This document shows, piece by piece, positions 1-22,822 of a stretch of 25,111 nt of DNA. The notes beneath the pieces were generated by a model. That model did no database searches and had not been told where the DNA came from. It was given only the letters and a program-made list of their open reading frames with translations. Origin of the DNA: a virus. The DNA lies in IMG/VR virus record IMGVR_UViG_3300031722_000155, positions 1 to 25,111 of that record. One strand, given 5' to 3'. The position numbers and the translations under genes were made by a program. Position 1 is the first letter of the stretch, and every line of letters begins with the position of its first letter.

Positions 1-552
1 TTAGAGGCAGAGTTGGCACAGGAAAGAATAAGCCTATCATCAGTTTCACGTGGCGAAACCTTTAAGGTTGGGGAACATGTCTTTATAAAGCTTAAGGAAG
101 AGTCAGGAAGCGCATATTGTGTTCTTAAGGGATTGCTTCCAAGTGAAAGAAAGTTTGATGCCAATTCGAATAATTGGGCAAAAAGCGAATTAAGAAAATA
201 TCTTAACTCTGAATTTTTAAAAGAATTGGAAAATGAAGTTTCTGCAAAAAACATCTGCGAATTTGAAATCGACTTAACTAGCTTGGACGGGTTAAAAGAT
301 TACGACAAGTGTATAGATAAAGTTTCATTAATGACATATGACCTCTACAAGCAAAATAGAGACATCCTAGAACCTCTAGGTGAATGGTTTTGGCTTTGTA
401 CTCCATTTTCCACCCCAACTGCTGATTATTCGCACGCCGTTTGCATTGTGCGCTCGGATGGTACTGTCGGCATCAGGAACTGCAGCTACGTTTACGGTGT
501 TCGTCCGTTTTGCATCTTTCAATCTGATATCTTAGTATCTTGTGAAGACTAA
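1..552 (+). CDS. DGR target protein, DUF6273-like (5' truncated by window)
   Basis: The reading frame is open through base 1, so the gene begins upstream; the first in-window TTG at 13 has no ribosome binding site and is unlikely to be the start. The visible 183 codons end in a DUF6273-like, C-type-lectin-type region: WFWLCTP near the middle of the last third, then SDGTV and GVRPF. The C-terminal variable repeat (431-509) is a near copy of the template repeat at 951-1029, so this is the protein diversified by the retroelement. Codons AAC, AAC, AAC, AAC, GAT and AAC in the template have become CGC, GGC, ATC, AGC, GTT and TAC here. In phages such targets are usually exposed receptor-binding or tail proteins, and that role is inference. 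The protein continues 14 residues past GVRPF. DGR target status is nearly certain; the virion location is not shown. Confidence 0.93.
   Translation, partial: LEAELAQERISLSSVSRGETFKVGEHVFIKLKEESGSAYCVLKGLLPSERKFDANSNNWAKSELRKYLNSEFLKELENEVSAKNICEFEIDLTSLDGLKDYDKCIDKVSLMTYDLYKQNRDILEPLGEWFWLCTPFSTPTADYSHAVCIVRSDGTVGIRNCSYVYGVRPFCIFQSDILVSCED
430..509 (+). repeat. DGR variable repeat (VR)
   Basis: This 80-bp segment near the 3' end of the target gene matches 950-1029. Nine positions differ, and at each the template has A and this copy has G, C or T (436, 451, 452, 469, 470, 473, 485, 491, 493). The first non-adenine difference is at 510 (T here, C in the template), which marks the 3' boundary where an initiation-of-mutagenic-homing element is expected. 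Confidence 0.95.
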
Positions 553-557
553 AGGTT

Positions 558-932
558 ATGAAAGAAAATAACGACTTGCAGGTGATTCTTAAGGCTAAAG
601 AGTTAGCAACTCATACATTTAAAGTCACTTCAAACAGTAATCATATTCCAAAGAAGTTTAGACATTCCTTAGTAGATAAGATGCAGATAAAAACCCTAGA
701 AATATATGAAAATCTGCTTGAAGCAAATAGGTTAGACTTAGCACTTTATAAGCCTCAAAGAATATCACTAATGAATGATGTAATTAACTACTGTGATGAA
801 CTCCTATTTTTTATTGAACTCACTCAAAGTTTAGGATTTCTCGGAAATATAAGCCTCGAATATTGGGTTAAAAAAGTTACTGACGTAAAATATATGACTT
901 TAGCGCTTAGGACAAAAGATAAGAACAGATAA
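558..932 (+). CDS. avd: DGR accessory variability determinant (Avd-like four-helix bundle)
   Basis: A 124-residue, all-helical, basic protein lies between the variable-repeat gene and the template repeat, the usual position for Avd. Sequence features match the Avd/S23-like four-helix-bundle family: an N-terminal helix with KAKELATHTFK, an IPKKFR turn near residue 30, a long helix with IYENLLEANR, and a C-terminal helix with CDELLFFIELTQ. Avd forms a pentameric barrel that binds the reverse transcriptase and the template RNA and is needed for adenine-mutagenic cDNA synthesis. The gene starts 5 nt after the target gene stop, so the two are probably co-transcribed. Confidence 0.85.
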   Translation: MKENNDLQVILKAKELATHTFKVTSNSNHIPKKFRHSLVDKMQIKTLEIYENLLEANRLDLALYKPQRISLMNDVINYCDELLFFIELTQSLGFLGNISLEYWVKKVTDVKYMTLALRTKDKNR

Positions 933-949
933 TTTGGTTATATGTTGCA

Positions 950-1029
950 TCGCACACCGTTTGCATTGTGAACTCGGATGGTACTGTCAACAACAGGAAC
1001 TGCAACTACGATAACGGTGTTCGTCCGTT
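950..1029 (+). repeat. DGR template repeat (TR)
   Basis: This non-coding template lies between the Avd gene and the reverse transcriptase. It is identical to the variable repeat at 430-509 except at nine template adenines. It is rich in AAC codons when read in the target frame, the design that lets adenine mutagenesis reach many amino acids without making stop codons. The RNA of this stretch is the template for mutagenic reverse transcription. Confidence 0.95.
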
Positions 1030-1134
1030 CTGGTGGAAAGTTAGTAAAAGTAGTGAATTATACGAAATCAATACGCCACTATCAAAAGAACATATAACCT
1101 TTCTCGAAGAGATAAAAACAAAGGATAGATATTT

Positions 1135-2163
1135 ATGGAAGATTTTAAAGATGTTGTTAGTTTTGATAATTTATATAAAGCCTATAGAGATTCTAAAAAA
1201 GGTAAGGGATATAAGAGAAGCTCTGCAAAGTTTGAAATTATGGCTTTAGAGGGAATTAGCCTTTTAAGGAGTCAGCTAGAAAACAAAACATATAAGGTTT
1301 CAAAATACAATGAATTTAAAGTTTTCGAACCTAAGGAGAGAGTTGTAAAGGCATGTGAATTTAAAGATAAGGTTGTTCAGCACAGCCTTTGCGACAACAT
1401 CCTTATACCTAAACTAAGCAAGGTTTTCATTAAAGATAATTGCGCAGGTCAGGTTGGAAAAGGAACTTTGTTTGGGTTGGATAGACTAAAAGAAAATATG
1501 CTTGATTTTTTTAAACATAATAAAAATGACGGATATATTTTGAAATGTGATATATCAAAGTTTTTCTACAATATAGACCATGAAGTCTTAAAAGACATGG
1601 TAAGGCGATACTTTGAGGATGAAGACGTAATTTGGCTATGTAATCTATTTATCGATAGCACAGAAGGCGTAGGGATTCCGTTGGGAAATCAAATAAGCCA
1701 AGTATTTGCATTAATGTATTTGGATAAAATGGACCATTATATTTTAGAAAACTTAAGAATTAAATATTATGGTCGGTATATGGATGATTTCTACCTCATT
1801 CACAAAGATAAGAAGTATTTACAAAAATGTTTAAGGGAGATTAAAAAAATTGTAGATGAATTAAAGCTTTCTTTAAACAACAAAACACAAATATTTCCAT
1901 TTAAAAACGGTATTAAGTTTCTTGGATTTCATACATATATAACCGACTCAGGCATTGCAATTAGAAAAATTGATAATCACAACAAAAGAATTGCAAAAAA
2001 GAAATTTACAAAGATGGCAAAGCTTCTTGTAGAAAATAAGATTTCGGATAAATGCTTCTATGAATCTTATAACTCATGGAAAAATCATGTTTCGCATGGG
2101 AATTGTAAAAAGTTGGTGCAGCAAATGGATTTACTTATTAATAATATTTTAGATGCGAGGTGA
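1135..2163 (+). CDS. DGR reverse transcriptase
   Basis: This 342-residue reverse transcriptase has the catalytic YMDD box (GRYMDDFYLI, about residue 215), the motif A aspartate in CDISKFF (about residue 140), and GIPLGNQISQ in motif 4. That I/LGxxxSQ form is typical of DGR enzymes rather than group II intron or retron enzymes. KFLGF follows in the thumb-proximal motif. There is no maturase, endonuclease or protease domain, and the length is normal for a DGR RT. It copies the template-repeat RNA into adenine-mutated cDNA that replaces the variable repeat. The start at 1135 is preceded by AAGGAT. The stop TGA forms part of the ribosome binding site of the next gene. Confidence 0.96.
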   Translation: MEDFKDVVSFDNLYKAYRDSKKGKGYKRSSAKFEIMALEGISLLRSQLENKTYKVSKYNEFKVFEPKERVVKACEFKDKVVQHSLCDNILIPKLSKVFIKDNCAGQVGKGTLFGLDRLKENMLDFFKHNKNDGYILKCDISKFFYNIDHEVLKDMVRRYFEDEDVIWLCNLFIDSTEGVGIPLGNQISQVFALMYLDKMDHYILENLRIKYYGRYMDDFYLIHKDKKYLQKCLREIKKIVDELKLSLNNKTQIFPFKNGIKFLGFHTYITDSGIAIRKIDNHNKRIAKKKFTKMAKLLVENKISDKCFYESYNSWKNHVSHGNCKKLVQQMDLLINNILDAR

Positions 2164-3085: not shown

Positions 3086-3523
3086 ATGAATAAAGTGATT
3101 TTAATGGGAAGGCTCACAAAAGACCCTGACATTAGATATTCAGGTGCAGAGAATAATATGGCGGTTGCTAGATATACCATGGCGGTTGACCGCAGATTTA
3201 AAAAAGACAATGAGCAAGGAGCAGACTTCATAAGCTGTGTCGCTTTTGGAAAGACTGCAGAGTTTGCAGAAAAGTATCTTCGCAAAGGAACTAAGATTCT
3301 TGTTGAGGGAAGAATACAGACAGGAAGCTACACAAATAAAGATGGTCAAAAGGTATATACAACTGACGTTGTAGTTGAAAATTCCGAATTTGCAGAAAGC
3401 AAAGCAGCATCAGGCGGAACTGATTATAACACTCAACCAATGCCTGAACCAGTAAGTTCAATGGGTGCTGACTTTATGAATATACCAGACGGAGTGGAAG
3501 ACGAAGGTCTGCCATTTAACTAG
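3086..3523 (+). CDS. ssb: single-stranded DNA-binding protein
   Basis: This 145-residue protein has an N-terminal OB fold starting MNKVILMGRLTKDP, with the classic RYTMAVDR, DFISCVAFGKTAE, KGTKILVEGRI and TGSY elements of bacterial and phage SSB. It ends in an acidic tail closing with LPFN, a variant of the DIPF tip that recruits partner proteins. It coats single-stranded DNA during phage replication and repair. It heads a replication block with the ERCC4-type nuclease and DnaD-like protein next door. Start ATG 3086 is preceded by TTAGGAGAT. Confidence 0.97.
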   Translation: MNKVILMGRLTKDPDIRYSGAENNMAVARYTMAVDRRFKKDNEQGADFISCVAFGKTAEFAEKYLRKGTKILVEGRIQTGSYTNKDGQKVYTTDVVVENSEFAESKAASGGTDYNTQPMPEPVSSMGADFMNIPDGVEDEGLPFN

Positions 3524-3539
3524 AGAGGGGGAATAAATC

Positions 3540-4277
3540 ATGCTTATCCTAGAAGATACTAGACAACAAGAATTTAAGCACGATTTAAAGCATAAATATT
3601 TTAGATCTGTTGGAGTTATGTGTAACCGAACAAAATTATATTGCGGTGATTATACGCTTCCAACTAATCAGACAGTTTGTGTAGATACAAAAAAAGATAT
3701 CCAGGAGTTAATTGGAGATATTCAGGTTAGAAAAACTCCAAAAAAAGATATAGAGGTTGCTTTATTAGAAATATTTAAATGTAACTCTTTAGACGGAAGA
3801 TATTCGGAGATTTTTCACATAATTTGTGACGATGACGATGGACGGTTTCCAGAAAGAGAAATTGCAGACTGGTGTTATGGAAATGGCTTTTCAGAAAGCA
3901 CAGATAGCCTCTTGCAAGGGCTTTATGTTAAAAGGCAAGGTTCATTCCATAGGGAACTAAAAAGAGCTGAGAATAGCAAAATTAAGCTTATTGTATTGGT
4001 TGAAAATAAAGACTCTGTTGGCTGTATAGAAGATTTGTTTTACTGGGTTAATCCTAGATTGATGATTTATAAAAATTCAGATCAGATTATTGGATATTTT
4101 AAAAATGGGAAGCCTAAGTATAAGAAAATACAAAAGTTTCCAACAGCAACTAAGGGTGAAATACTTGCAAAATCTTTATTTACAATGCAGTTAAGATATG
4201 GAGTTAAGTTCATGTTTTGTCGTCCTGAAGAGTCAGGGGAAATGGTAATTAAGTTATTAAGCGAACAGGTGGAGTGA
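3540..4277 (+). CDS. ERCC4-type nuclease domain protein
   Basis: The 245-residue protein carries the XPF/ERCC4-like nuclease signature in expanded form: EDTRQQ (residues 5-10), GDYTLP (about 37-42), a VDTKKDIQEL motif (about 48-57) replacing V-ERK, and IKLIVLVEN in the later core strand. These families cut branched or single-stranded DNA junctions. An acidic stretch DDDDGRF sits in the insertion. It lies between SSB and the replication initiator, consistent with a replication or recombination role; substrate specificity cannot be read from the sequence. A strong GGGGGAAT ribosome site precedes ATG 3540. Confidence 0.75.
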   Translation: MLILEDTRQQEFKHDLKHKYFRSVGVMCNRTKLYCGDYTLPTNQTVCVDTKKDIQELIGDIQVRKTPKKDIEVALLEIFKCNSLDGRYSEIFHIICDDDDGRFPEREIADWCYGNGFSESTDSLLQGLYVKRQGSFHRELKRAENSKIKLIVLVENKDSVGCIEDLFYWVNPRLMIYKNSDQIIGYFKNGKPKYKKIQKFPTATKGEILAKSLFTMQLRYGVKFMFCRPEESGEMVIKLLSEQVE

Positions 4278-4279
4278 TA

Positions 4280-5056
4280 ATGGATGGTTATATAAAATTT
4301 TATCGGAAAACTCTAGACAGTCCAATTATTTGTAAAGACAGTGATTATTTTGCAGTTTGGGGATATTTATTATTGAGTGCTACTCACAAAGAATATGAAA
4401 CTTTATTCAATGGAGAAAAAATTATTCTCTTACCTGGACAGCTAATTACTGGTCGAAAAGCGATTTCTAGCAAATTTAAAGTTGACGAAAGTAAAGTGCA
4501 AAGAATTTTAAAATCCTTTGAAAACGAACATCAAATTGAACAGCTAACTTGTAACAGAAATCGCCTAATTACAATACTTAATTGGGATATATACCAAAGT
4601 AATGAACAACAGATTAAACAACAAGTGAACAACAACTGCACAACCAGTGAACAACCAGTGAACACTAACAAGAAAGTAAAGAATATAAAGAATGTAAAGA
4701 ATAAAACATATGGCGATTTTTTTGAAGAAATATGGAAATTATACCCAATCAAAAAAGGCAAAGCTAGTGTTTCTGATAAACAAAAAAATATCTTGTTCAA
4801 AATTGGATATGAGGAAATTGAGCGAGCGATTAAAAGATACATTGATGATAGTAAAAATACTAACATAGAGTTTTGGAAATATGGGAGTTCATTTTTTAAC
4901 AAAGGCTATATTGATTACCTTGATGAAAATTATACACCAGTAGATCCCAATATGGTGACAATAAAAAAAGAATCTGCAAAACCAAAGAATAGTTTTACAG
5001 GATTTGGTCAAAGGACCTATGACTACAATGAACTTGAAAAACAATTATTAAAATAA
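4280..5056 (+). CDS. phage replication protein, DnaD-like/HTH N-terminal domain
   Basis: The 258-residue protein begins MDGYIKFYRKTLDSP, the opening typical of Firmicute phage replisome organisers. A winged-helix region follows (GQLITGRKAISSKFKVDESK, residues about 54-73), then a Gln/Asn-rich linker (residues about 104-130) and a C-terminal helical domain with IWKLYPIKKGK. That C-terminal segment is common in DnaD-like loaders that bind the phage origin and recruit helicase. I chose ATG 4280 over the in-frame GTG at 4274 because AGGTGGAG is correctly spaced for it. It starts 2 nt after the nuclease gene. Repeated ACCAGTGAAC units in the linker-coding DNA (4630-4665) could be an internal origin, but that is speculative. 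Confidence 0.75.
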   Translation: MDGYIKFYRKTLDSPIICKDSDYFAVWGYLLLSATHKEYETLFNGEKIILLPGQLITGRKAISSKFKVDESKVQRILKSFENEHQIEQLTCNRNRLITILNWDIYQSNEQQIKQQVNNNCTTSEQPVNTNKKVKNIKNVKNKTYGDFFEEIWKLYPIKKGKASVSDKQKNILFKIGYEEIERAIKRYIDDSKNTNIEFWKYGSSFFNKGYIDYLDENYTPVDPNMVTIKKESAKPKNSFTGFGQRTYDYNELEKQLLK

Positions 5057-9355: not shown

Positions 9356-10004
9356 TCAAGAAATGGTCAAAGCAATACTTGATGGCAGAAAGACAGTAAC
9401 TAGAAGAATAGTGAAACCGCAACCTGATAATAAACATCAAAGTCCTCTTGGCTATGTAATGAGTGGAATTAGTCAAGAAAACGAAGGTTGCTTTGGGTGG
9501 GGGCTTGATGAATATGGCGGTACCATTCAACATGCAAGACCACCATATAAAGTTGGAGATATTCTTTATGTAAGGGAAACGTGGTGTCGTGGAACGGTTG
9601 CTGTGGGCGAACTTGAAGATGGCAGAGGTGAAGAATTTATATCTCAATGCGATGCTGAAAAAGACTATGTTATTCCAAAAGAATGGGCTATAAGAAACAA
9701 TATTGGGATTGAGGATATTTTATGGAAACCCTCGATACATATGCCAAAAGTAGCAGCTCGTATTTTCCTAAGAGTAAAAACTGTTAGAGCTGAAAGGCTT
9801 ATGGAAATGTCAATCCAAGACATGATTGATGAGGGGATTAACACAGAGGGAATAATTAGTAATCAGGGTCCAATTAATTATCAAGTTATAAATCGCTTTG
9901 AAGAACTTTGGAACTCGACAATTAAAAAAGAAGATTTTGATAATTATAGTTTGGGCGCAAATCCTTGGGTTTGGGTTATCGAATTTGAAAGGGTAAAGGT
10001 GTGA
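9336..10004 (+). CDS. ASCH-like phage protein (222 aa)
   Basis: The product begins MKPILFNQEMVKAILDGRKT followed by VTRR, a hallmark of a phage protein family with an ASCH/PUA-like fold. Further matches include GDILYVRETWC, a MPKVAARIFLRVK strand-turn, and a C-terminal NPWVWVIEFERV. ASCH domains are proposed RNA-binding modules; the phage members have no firm function. I chose ATG 9336 because AGGGGG precedes it; a longer start at 9276 overlaps the previous gene too far. The FEELWNS element before the C-terminus is typical of the family. Confidence 0.8.
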   Translation: MKPILFNQEMVKAILDGRKTVTRRIVKPQPDNKHQSPLGYVMSGISQENEGCFGWGLDEYGGTIQHARPPYKVGDILYVRETWCRGTVAVGELEDGRGEEFISQCDAEKDYVIPKEWAIRNNIGIEDILWKPSIHMPKVAARIFLRVKTVRAERLMEMSIQDMIDEGINTEGIISNQGPINYQVINRFEELWNSTIKKEDFDNYSLGANPWVWVIEFERVKV

Positions 10005-10571: not shown

Positions 10572-10937
10572 ATGGAATCAGACAAAAGAAAAGTAAGATG
10601 TAAAAATATTTCTTGTGAAGAAAATGTAGAAGGCAATTGTATTTCATATACAGTGCAGATTGACGAAAGTGGTATCTGCGAAAAACAAGCCATGCCACCA
10701 ATTACGGTTAGGATAGGGTTGGATATTTCTAACGATAAGCCTAGAAAAATCGCTTGTAGAAGTAAAAACGATGAGGGAATGATGGCAAGTAGTGAAAATC
10801 ATTATATGTTAGAAATTGGAAAGATTTATAATCTTCAACTTCTTGAAGTGCATAGCTGGTATACGCTTGTGTATCTAGAAGAGTTTCCGGGTATATCATT
10901 TAATAGCGTTGTTTTTAACGACTTAGCCATAGGATAA
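10572..10937 (+). CDS. hypothetical phage protein with N-terminal Cys motif (121 aa)
   Basis: ATG 10572 follows TTTGGAGGGAATT; an in-frame TTG at 10557 lies inside that site and is rejected. The N-terminal third has spaced cysteines (CKNISCEENVEGNC, then GICEKQ), a possible metal or disulfide knot. The C-terminal part is beta-rich (YMLEIGKIYNLQLLEV, WYTLVYLEEF, SVVFNDLAIG), resembling a small SH3-like barrel. No family is certain. Confidence 0.65.
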   Translation: MESDKRKVRCKNISCEENVEGNCISYTVQIDESGICEKQAMPPITVRIGLDISNDKPRKIACRSKNDEGMMASSENHYMLEIGKIYNLQLLEVHSWYTLVYLEEFPGISFNSVVFNDLAIG

Positions 10938-10969
10938 ACAAAAAACTTAGAAAAGGGAGAGAACAATTT

Positions 10970-11266
10970 ATGCAGACAAGAACAATTTACAAATATCAAC
11001 TTAAAACAACGGATAGACAAACTATAAGCGTTCCAATACTCATATCAACCACTAATTTTAAAAAGCAAGTTTTGAAAGTTGATGTACAAAAAGGTGAGCC
11101 TTGTATTTGGTGCCTAGTTGATACTGAGAGAGAAAGCAGAGAAGTAAAAATTCGTATTGTCGGAACTGGACATCCAATGCCGGACTTATATCAAGAAGAC
11201 TATTTAGGTAGTTATATGCTGCAGGAAGAAAGTTTAGTGTTTCACGTTTTTTTAGAAGACTATTAA
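10970..11266 (+). CDS. DUF7352-like phage protein (98 aa)
   Basis: The 98-residue beta-rich protein has the order KYQLKTTDRQTISVP, then VLKVDVQKGEPCIWCLVD, then a GTGHPMPD loop, and a C-terminal LVFHVFLE. This matches a small phage family usually annotated DUF7352, of unknown function. The ribosome site AAAGGGAGAG precedes ATG 10970. Family assignment is from memory of the pattern and should be treated as probable. Confidence 0.65.
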   Translation: MQTRTIYKYQLKTTDRQTISVPILISTTNFKKQVLKVDVQKGEPCIWCLVDTERESREVKIRIVGTGHPMPDLYQEDYLGSYMLQEESLVFHVFLEDY

Positions 11267-17364: not shown

Positions 17365-18366
17365 ATGGTTAAGGAGAAGGTAATAAAAGATATAATGTTG
17401 TCTATGTCAGAGGAATTAAATTCAAAGCAGTTAAGGGCACTAGAAGACACTTTAAGGATAAATCTTCATGGGGTGAAGATGGAGCAGGAGTCAACAGAAA
17501 TCAGTACATATTCGGATGATAATGATTATATTTTAAAACTTTTTGTAGCAAACAAGAAGTTAGAAAACAAATCAGATAAATCAATCAAGCAGTATGTAAA
17601 CGATACTAAGAAAATGCTCCAAGCATTAAATAAAAACTATAAAGATGTTACCACTGATGACATTAAATATTACTTAGCATTATACCAGACACAGCATAAA
17701 GTATGTCCAACAACCATTGCAAACATGAAAAGATTTATAAGTTCATTTTATTCGTGGGCAAGTGATGAAGATTACGTTCCAAAAAATCCTGTTAGAGCTA
17801 TTAAAGCAATAAAACAGATTGAAAAGGAAAAGGATTTTCTGACAAACGAGGAAGTTGAGTTGATGAGAGATAACTACTCAACTCTTAGAGAAAAAGCTAT
17901 ATTTGAGTTTCTCATGAGTACTGGTCTGAGAGTTTCTGAATTGGAAGCTCTAGATATTGACCATGTGAACTTTCGAACAGATGCGGTAAGAGTTTATGCC
18001 CCAAAAACAAGGAAATATAGAACTGCATACATGAATGCCAAAGCAAAGTTAGCACTTAAAAAGTATTTGAAATCAAGAAAAGATAATAACATTGCTTTGT
18101 TCGTTTCAAAAATAGGTGCTCACAGAAGACTTGGAACAGGATCCATTCAAAAGGAATTACAGAAAGTTGCTAAAAGAGCAGAATTAAATAAACATGTTAC
18201 AGTTCATTTAGTGAGAAAAACTTTTGCTACAGTATTGAGTTCAGGTGGAGTTAAAATCCAAATTATTCAGGAATTATTAGGACATGCTGATATTTCTATG
18301 ACGGCAAGGCATTACATTACAGTTGACCAAGATGATATTAGAATGGCCCATAAGAGATGTGCTTAA
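17365..18366 (+). CDS. int: tyrosine recombinase/integrase
   Basis: The 333-residue protein has an N-terminal SAM-like core-binding domain (about residues 52-150, YILKLFVANKKLENKS...) and a C-terminal catalytic domain. The active-site set is visible: R189 in TGLRVSELEAL, a lysine around 217, H281 and R284 in HLVRKTFA, H307 in LLGHADI, and nucleophile Y317 in RHYITV. It resembles XerC/D-type phage integrases and would drive integration and excision. A TAGGAGGAAG site precedes ATG 17365. A convincing att core was not found; see the repeat region at 19083-19212. Confidence 0.95.
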   Translation: MVKEKVIKDIMLSMSEELNSKQLRALEDTLRINLHGVKMEQESTEISTYSDDNDYILKLFVANKKLENKSDKSIKQYVNDTKKMLQALNKNYKDVTTDDIKYYLALYQTQHKVCPTTIANMKRFISSFYSWASDEDYVPKNPVRAIKAIKQIEKEKDFLTNEEVELMRDNYSTLREKAIFEFLMSTGLRVSELEALDIDHVNFRTDAVRVYAPKTRKYRTAYMNAKAKLALKKYLKSRKDNNIALFVSKIGAHRRLGTGSIQKELQKVAKRAELNKHVTVHLVRKTFATVLSSGGVKIQIIQELLGHADISMTARHYITVDQDDIRMAHKRCA

Positions 18367-22501: not shown

Positions 22502-22577
22502 GTTGGAATATACCAAATACAAAAGTAAAGTAAAAATCCTGAAGACTCAAAGTACTTGGTGCAGGCTAAACAACTTC

Positions 22578-22663
22578 GGAAACATACTCAAGAGGCTAAA
22601 GAGATTCGGTTGCTAACCGAACAGCACTGTATGGTGGCGAAGGTTCGAATCCTTCTGTTTCCG
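22578..22663 (+). tRNA. tRNA-Ser(GCT)
   Basis: A class II tRNA: acceptor GGAAACA/TGTTTCC, D arm CTC...GAG, anticodon stem TTCGG/CCGAA with loop TTGCTAA giving anticodon GCT, an extended variable arm of about 17 nt, and T arm GAAGG-TTCGAAT-CCTTC. The discriminator is G. No CCA end is encoded. It reads AGC/AGT. Confidence 0.93.
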
Positions 22664-22750
22664 TTGGTTCTGCCTAAAGAACCACATTTTGCTTTCATTC
22701 CCCTTTTTGCAATACTGTTTTGTGCGTTTCAGTCCAAAAAATGCATACCC

Positions 22751-22822
22751 TGTAATGTAGCTCAATGGCAGAGCGCTCGACTGATATTCGAGAAGTTGGT
22801 GGTTCAAGTCCATCCATTACAA
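22751..22822 (+). tRNA. tRNA-Ile(GAT)
   Basis: Acceptor TGTAATG/CATTACA, D arm GCTC...GAGC, anticodon stem CTCGA/TCGAG with loop CTGATAT giving anticodon GAT, and T arm GGTGG-TTCAAGT-CCATC (one G-T). No CCA is encoded. It would read ATC/ATT. Confidence 0.9.

Follow-up and report, generated by a model that had tools for sequence, protein, structure and literature searches.

A diversity-generating retroelement lineage in the early gene module of phages that probably diversifies small DUF6273 proteins

Analysis of the window, by which we mean the whole 25,111-bp stretch of viral DNA studied here, an IMG/VR record, revealed a genuine diversity-generating retroelement (DGR), and this call is secure. 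The cassette probably represents a distinct DGR lineage, located in the early module, in which the diversified gene encodes a small, free-standing DUF6273/C-type-lectin-like protein and not a tail protein. No description of this early-module DGR clade was found in the literature searched.

Identification of the DGR

The template repeat (TR; positions 950-1029, plus strand) was aligned without gaps to the variable repeat (VR; 430-509, plus strand), and a scan of the entire window yielded no other VR matching it. The two 80-bp repeats differed at nine positions (436, 451, 452, 469, 470, 473, 485, 491 and 493 of the VR), and all nine were adenines in the TR, with no non-adenine difference within the 80 bp; the substitutions from TR to VR were five A>G, three A>T and one A>C. 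The TR contained 20 adenines among its 80 bases, 9 of which were altered in the VR, and the probability that nine random differences would all fall on A was about 7e-7. In particular, AAC triplets held seven of the nine differences, and all nine lay at codon position 1 or 2, with seven amino-acid changes. A preliminary description of this DNA had reported nine differences over 80 bp, each from a template adenine to G, C or T, together with a boundary difference at 510/1030; our alignment agreed on each point, with T/C at the boundary, and the adenine-only differences demonstrate past homing. A second VR was not found within the 25,111-bp window, and the phage tail region lies outside this fragment.

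The order of target (1-552), Avd (558-932), TR and reverse transcriptase (RT; 1135-2163), all on the plus strand, was also found to be as first described. The RT matched phrog_1423 (2e-113) and contained YMDD and LGNQISQ, the latter replacing QGxxxSP. Its top PDB sequence match was 8ub7, 'Reverse transcriptase' (5e-34), which we take to belong to the BPP-1 DGR RT series, and group II and other RTs matched at 3e-13 or weaker; these matches identified a DGR-type enzyme. Defence RTs (PADLOC families) were rejected, as they showed only generic RT homology that was weaker than the DGR-type match. Avd matched phrog_3206, 'Avd protein of DGR' (1.6e-16), with a match to NCBIfam NF033474 that fell below the family cut-off, and showed an identity of 48-58% to the Avd proteins of early-module relatives. 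An ordinary duplicated sequence would likewise present two similar 80-bp copies, but this origin is extremely improbable for a pair in which 9 of 9 differences are on template adenines and which lies next to Avd and an RT of the DGR type. The DGR had also been called complete, which holds for the machinery (Avd, TR and RT) only, because the target ORF continues past the beginning of the contig.

Structure of the target protein

The target gene encoded a DUF6273/C-type-lectin-like protein (Pfam DUF6273, 4e-12; phrog_9958, 6e-46). Its 5' end was cut by the contig end, with approximately 11-12 residues missing compared with the target of a related locus (L026), and the visible 183 aa comprised DUF6273 only, without an Ig domain; the tentaclin architecture, in which an N-terminal C-lectin domain is followed by Ig-like domains, was therefore not present. 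The AlphaFold2 model (24 sequences; m133679007d4d) revealed a confident single domain with a pLDDT of 92, in which the VR mapped to strands 146-150 and 156-160 of a hairpin. The DUF6273 match, the model and the Foldseek matches to DUF6273 proteins all placed the VR in a C-terminal C-type-lectin-like domain. Foldseek matched the model to phage DUF6273 proteins and to an IgA peptidase of solved structure (9qa6). This gut-bacterial enzyme was the top solved-structure match, and its N-terminal domain has been named DUF6273 (PMC12402451).

Early-module setting of the cassette

Directly behind the RT, on the same strand, was a metallo-hydrolase gene (phrog_392; 2153-2890), and family searches identified genes for SSB (3086-3523), an ERCC4-type nuclease (3540-4277) and a DnaD-like helicase loader (4274-5056) further downstream, also on the plus strand. 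Members of phrog_392 also occurred close to the cassette of several relatives, L025 and L028 among them. In the relatives, PHROG family tallies and a direct scan of the ten genes on either side showed that the cassette neighbours include a replisome organizer, RecT, SSB, SbcC, DnaB, exonuclease VIII, a DnaC-like loader and DNA methyltransferases, and terminase genes lay close behind the cassette in at least one relative (L082). Gene order and neighbours are evidence for, and not proof of, early expression of the cassette. In the window, genes for tRNA-Ser (GCT; 22577-22664) and tRNA-Ile (GAT; 22751-22822) separated the small terminase gene from the large one.

Integrase genes were present in the window (17365-18366), in the relative L109 and in Roseburia phage Shimadzu, and the host phages of the clade are probably temperate. 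With integrases in several contigs and a lectin-like fold suited to ligand binding, the product might be placed on the lysogen surface for superinfection exclusion or adhesion. We consider this very unlikely, as hydropathy analysis revealed no peak typical of a signal peptide or transmembrane segment in any of the 122 small targets, and a sortase-type C-terminus was not seen in the alignments.

The early-module DGR clade

A scan of IMG/VR with the target alignment revealed 77 relative loci; the RT alone as a query retrieved only distant loci. Most relatives with a nearby RT showed a contiguous target-target-Avd-TR-RT arrangement, and a single TR served both targets in 24 dereplicated loci. The window showed this order too; its visible target corresponded to the second of the two, and the sequence upstream of it lay beyond the contig start. 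Across 55 VRs, 717 of the 810 core mismatches were at TR adenines, while adenines made up 37% of the core bases. In the unrooted RT tree, 30 dereplicated RTs from cassettes of this type, including that of the window, lay on one side of a branch with support of 98/95, separate from 13 others.

Exactly two VRs, both in small targets, were found in 11 of the 12 longer contigs (25-55 kb), and none of these 11 contigs contained a VR in a tail gene; several of them carried terminase, portal, tape-measure or tail genes at other places. The twelfth (L046) contained both targets, Avd and the RT with a TR-like region of few adenines (approximately 10873-11060), and no VR that recognisably matched its TR was found. 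The template of this locus has probably decayed, or it has possibly overwritten itself. We also observed tandem small targets without an adjacent Avd or RT in three records (L031, 9279-10504; L035, 9297-10507; L039, 9297-10504). No RT was found in the whole records of L031 (174 kb) and L035 (34.7 kb), and that of L039 (201 kb) contained an RT approximately 22 kb from the tandem targets. In comparison with the L028/L030 TR, their VRs matched mainly at adenines, and these targets may accordingly be served in trans or be relics.

Two groups of near-identical contigs provided strong evidence, from sequence comparison, of recent adenine-directed diversification within the clade. L043 differed from L045/L049 at 12 positions in 14,983 bp, and L036 differed from L032 at 13 positions in 6,053 bp; in both comparisons, every difference was at a template adenine of the second target's VR. 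For the window itself, the phage records contained no near relative and the viral and genome contigs contained no sibling detectable by its VR/TR pattern; by analogy with the clade relatives, the window copy is presumably active. The window DGR might instead be a relic, with old TR/VR differences and a system that no longer works here: only 9 of the 20 template adenines differ, and no sibling genomes showing current change were found. A relic is quite unlikely, however, given that the RT, Avd and the target each have an open frame, YMDD is intact, not a single non-adenine difference has accumulated within the 80 bp, the stem enclosing the TR is perfect and the clade relatives are diversifying.

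Comparison with other phage DGRs

The window cassette shared with BPP-1 (mtd-avd-TR-brt) the target-Avd-TR-RT order and the adenine-specific differences between TR and VR. In BPP-1, a tail-tip receptor-binding protein is diversified, unlike our reading of the window clade. A tblastn search with the window target revealed homologs in phages nd4, nd12, Toutatis and Brigit, far from their RTs, and genome scans for adenine-directed repeats revealed one TR and two VRs in each of these phages. The VR pair comprised one in a large tail-side/Hoc-like gene beside the RT and one in a small early DUF6273 gene. In Roseburia phage Shimadzu (L101), the second VR (33477-33599) was located in an early gene, orf43, that scored as DUF6273 and adjoined genes for a methyltransferase, Erf and SSB. 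Acutalibacter phage Fontainebleau (L104) contained one TR and two VRs (9796-9896 and 34380-34481), the former in a small gene that separates DNA polymerase I from a helicase; neither 'DGR' nor 'reverse transcriptase' was found in the main text of the corresponding paper (PMC10197239). The small DUF6273 gene was thus the second, early-module target of a late-region DGR in six complete gut phages.

In particular, nd4 and nd12 (Baykov et al. 2023, PMC10743442) resemble the window in having a small DUF6273-only target with the VR at its 3' end, the Avd-TR-RT order and a stem enclosing the TR, and their target2/tgt2 proteins are homologous to the window target, with 37% and 33% identity in the alignment. 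In contrast, their cassette lies in the late region beside tentaclin, a large target with Ig domains, and the small target is remote, whereas in the window the cassette itself adjoins the small target, within the early module, and the RT belongs to a separate clade. Faecalibacterium phage Lelie/candidate prophage CP11, for which a large and a small DUF6273 target are described (PMC11792537), Toutatis and Brigit also have a small DUF6273 second target with a VR, and we located the second VRs of Toutatis and Brigit in the early region. These systems nevertheless differ from the window in their late-region cassette, their two dissimilar targets and their RTs, which lie outside the window's clade.

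Small second targets have therefore already been published, and the portions of PMC10743442 and PMC11792537 consulted here read them as likely receptor-binding and contain no comment on their early position. The window target could be a virion surface or receptor-binding protein whose gene merely lies away from the tail genes, and the preliminary description had called it a phage surface protein. The C-type-lectin-like VR domain is common to all DGR targets and is also used by tail proteins, tail-annotated proteins are among the Foldseek relatives, and a role like that of Mtd was proposed for tgt2 in PMC10743442. However, the same paper reports that an N-terminal beta-prism was not found in tgt2, and the targets of 180-235 aa have no tail-attachment or Ig-like domains. 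They were found repeatedly between replication and recombination genes and have no signal peptide or transmembrane segment. Neither a tail-module location nor a virion-attachment domain was found for the DUF6273-only window target with its early-module neighbours, and VRs in tail genes, judged from the relatives, numbered zero across the whole contigs of the clade. We consequently do not retain the surface-protein designation and regard a receptor-binding role as unlikely. As the window lacks the tail region, a further VR may be present in a tail gene outside the 25-kb fragment.

A stem enclosing the template repeat

Folding of the TR region revealed an 11-bp perfect stem that encloses the TR, with a left arm (GGTTATATGTT, 936-946, plus strand) that is the perfect complement of the right arm (AACATATAACC, 1089-1099, plus strand). 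The single-sequence fold of the TR region overall was not significant (z 0.32), and the significance of the stem itself was shown by alignment only. The stem was found at the equivalent place in most relatives. In an alignment of 33 sequences built without structural information (A8), a strongly covarying 12-bp stem around the TR was 94.4% paired, compared with 81% in shuffles, and showed 65 two-sided changes, compared with 16 in shuffles; slid versions of the stem were at most 54% paired. Besides the stem, most relatives shared a conserved motif in the spacer, GAGTAGGC-loop-GCCGAAATCA.

Similar stems enclosed the TR in nd4, nd12, Toutatis, Brigit, Shimadzu and Fontainebleau, and the consulted part of PMC10743442 contains no discussion of a stem. 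BPP-1, subjected to an equal test, showed no comparable long stem around its TR and gave no significant result. The stem had no Rfam match at the gathering score, and no description of it was found in the literature searched, a search that did not extend to the BPP-1 RNA-structure papers. The hairpin that lies behind the VR in BPP-1, and that is reported to be helpful there without being strictly required (PMC12875486), was not present in the window (fold of 505-580, z = -0.84) and was not enriched in this group (55 VRs).

Proposed mechanism and implications

Based on the location and size of the targets, the lack of export signals and the lack of tail VRs, the most economical reading is that small early proteins other than tail fibres are diversified, and the target is more like a small lectin-like family encoded early, next to DNA-replication genes, than like a tail fibre, which would point to variation of something apart from the outer coat in this phage lineage. 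The stem enclosing the TR would hold the Avd-TR-RT transcript in shape, and the RT and Avd would reverse-transcribe the TR RNA, making errors at its adenines, by analogy with the enzymatic steps of BPP-1. The mutated cDNA would then take the place of the VR, which lies at the 3' end of the neighbouring target gene, and would thereby alter an exposed hairpin in the lectin-like domain. The product is predicted not to be a virion tail protein and would more likely act inside the infected or lysogenic cell.

More tentatively, and with somewhat less than even confidence, we propose that this DGR lineage was redirected from attachment of the virion to an early task within the cell, in which small soluble lectin-like proteins, produced together with those of the replication and recombination genes, are hypermutated, perhaps to bind variable factors of the host or of rival phages, defence proteins for example. 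The phage's own RecT/SSB/exonuclease set, encoded nearby, might assist homing. Both an intracellular ligand and help in homing from the annealing protein next to the cassette are hypothetical; the reported link between retrohoming and DNA replication (PMC12875486) fits such help without showing it.

Phage DGRs are habitually read as tail-fibre switches. A clade with no recognised targets other than small proteins that lack export signals and are encoded among recombination and replication genes raises the question of what else phages hypermutate, and against whom. Cultured phages with a comparable early target, namely Roseburia phage Shimadzu, Acutalibacter phage Fontainebleau and Faecalibacterium phage Lelie, allow this to be tested, and the covarying TR stem provides a structural handle on DGR template RNA beyond BPP-1.
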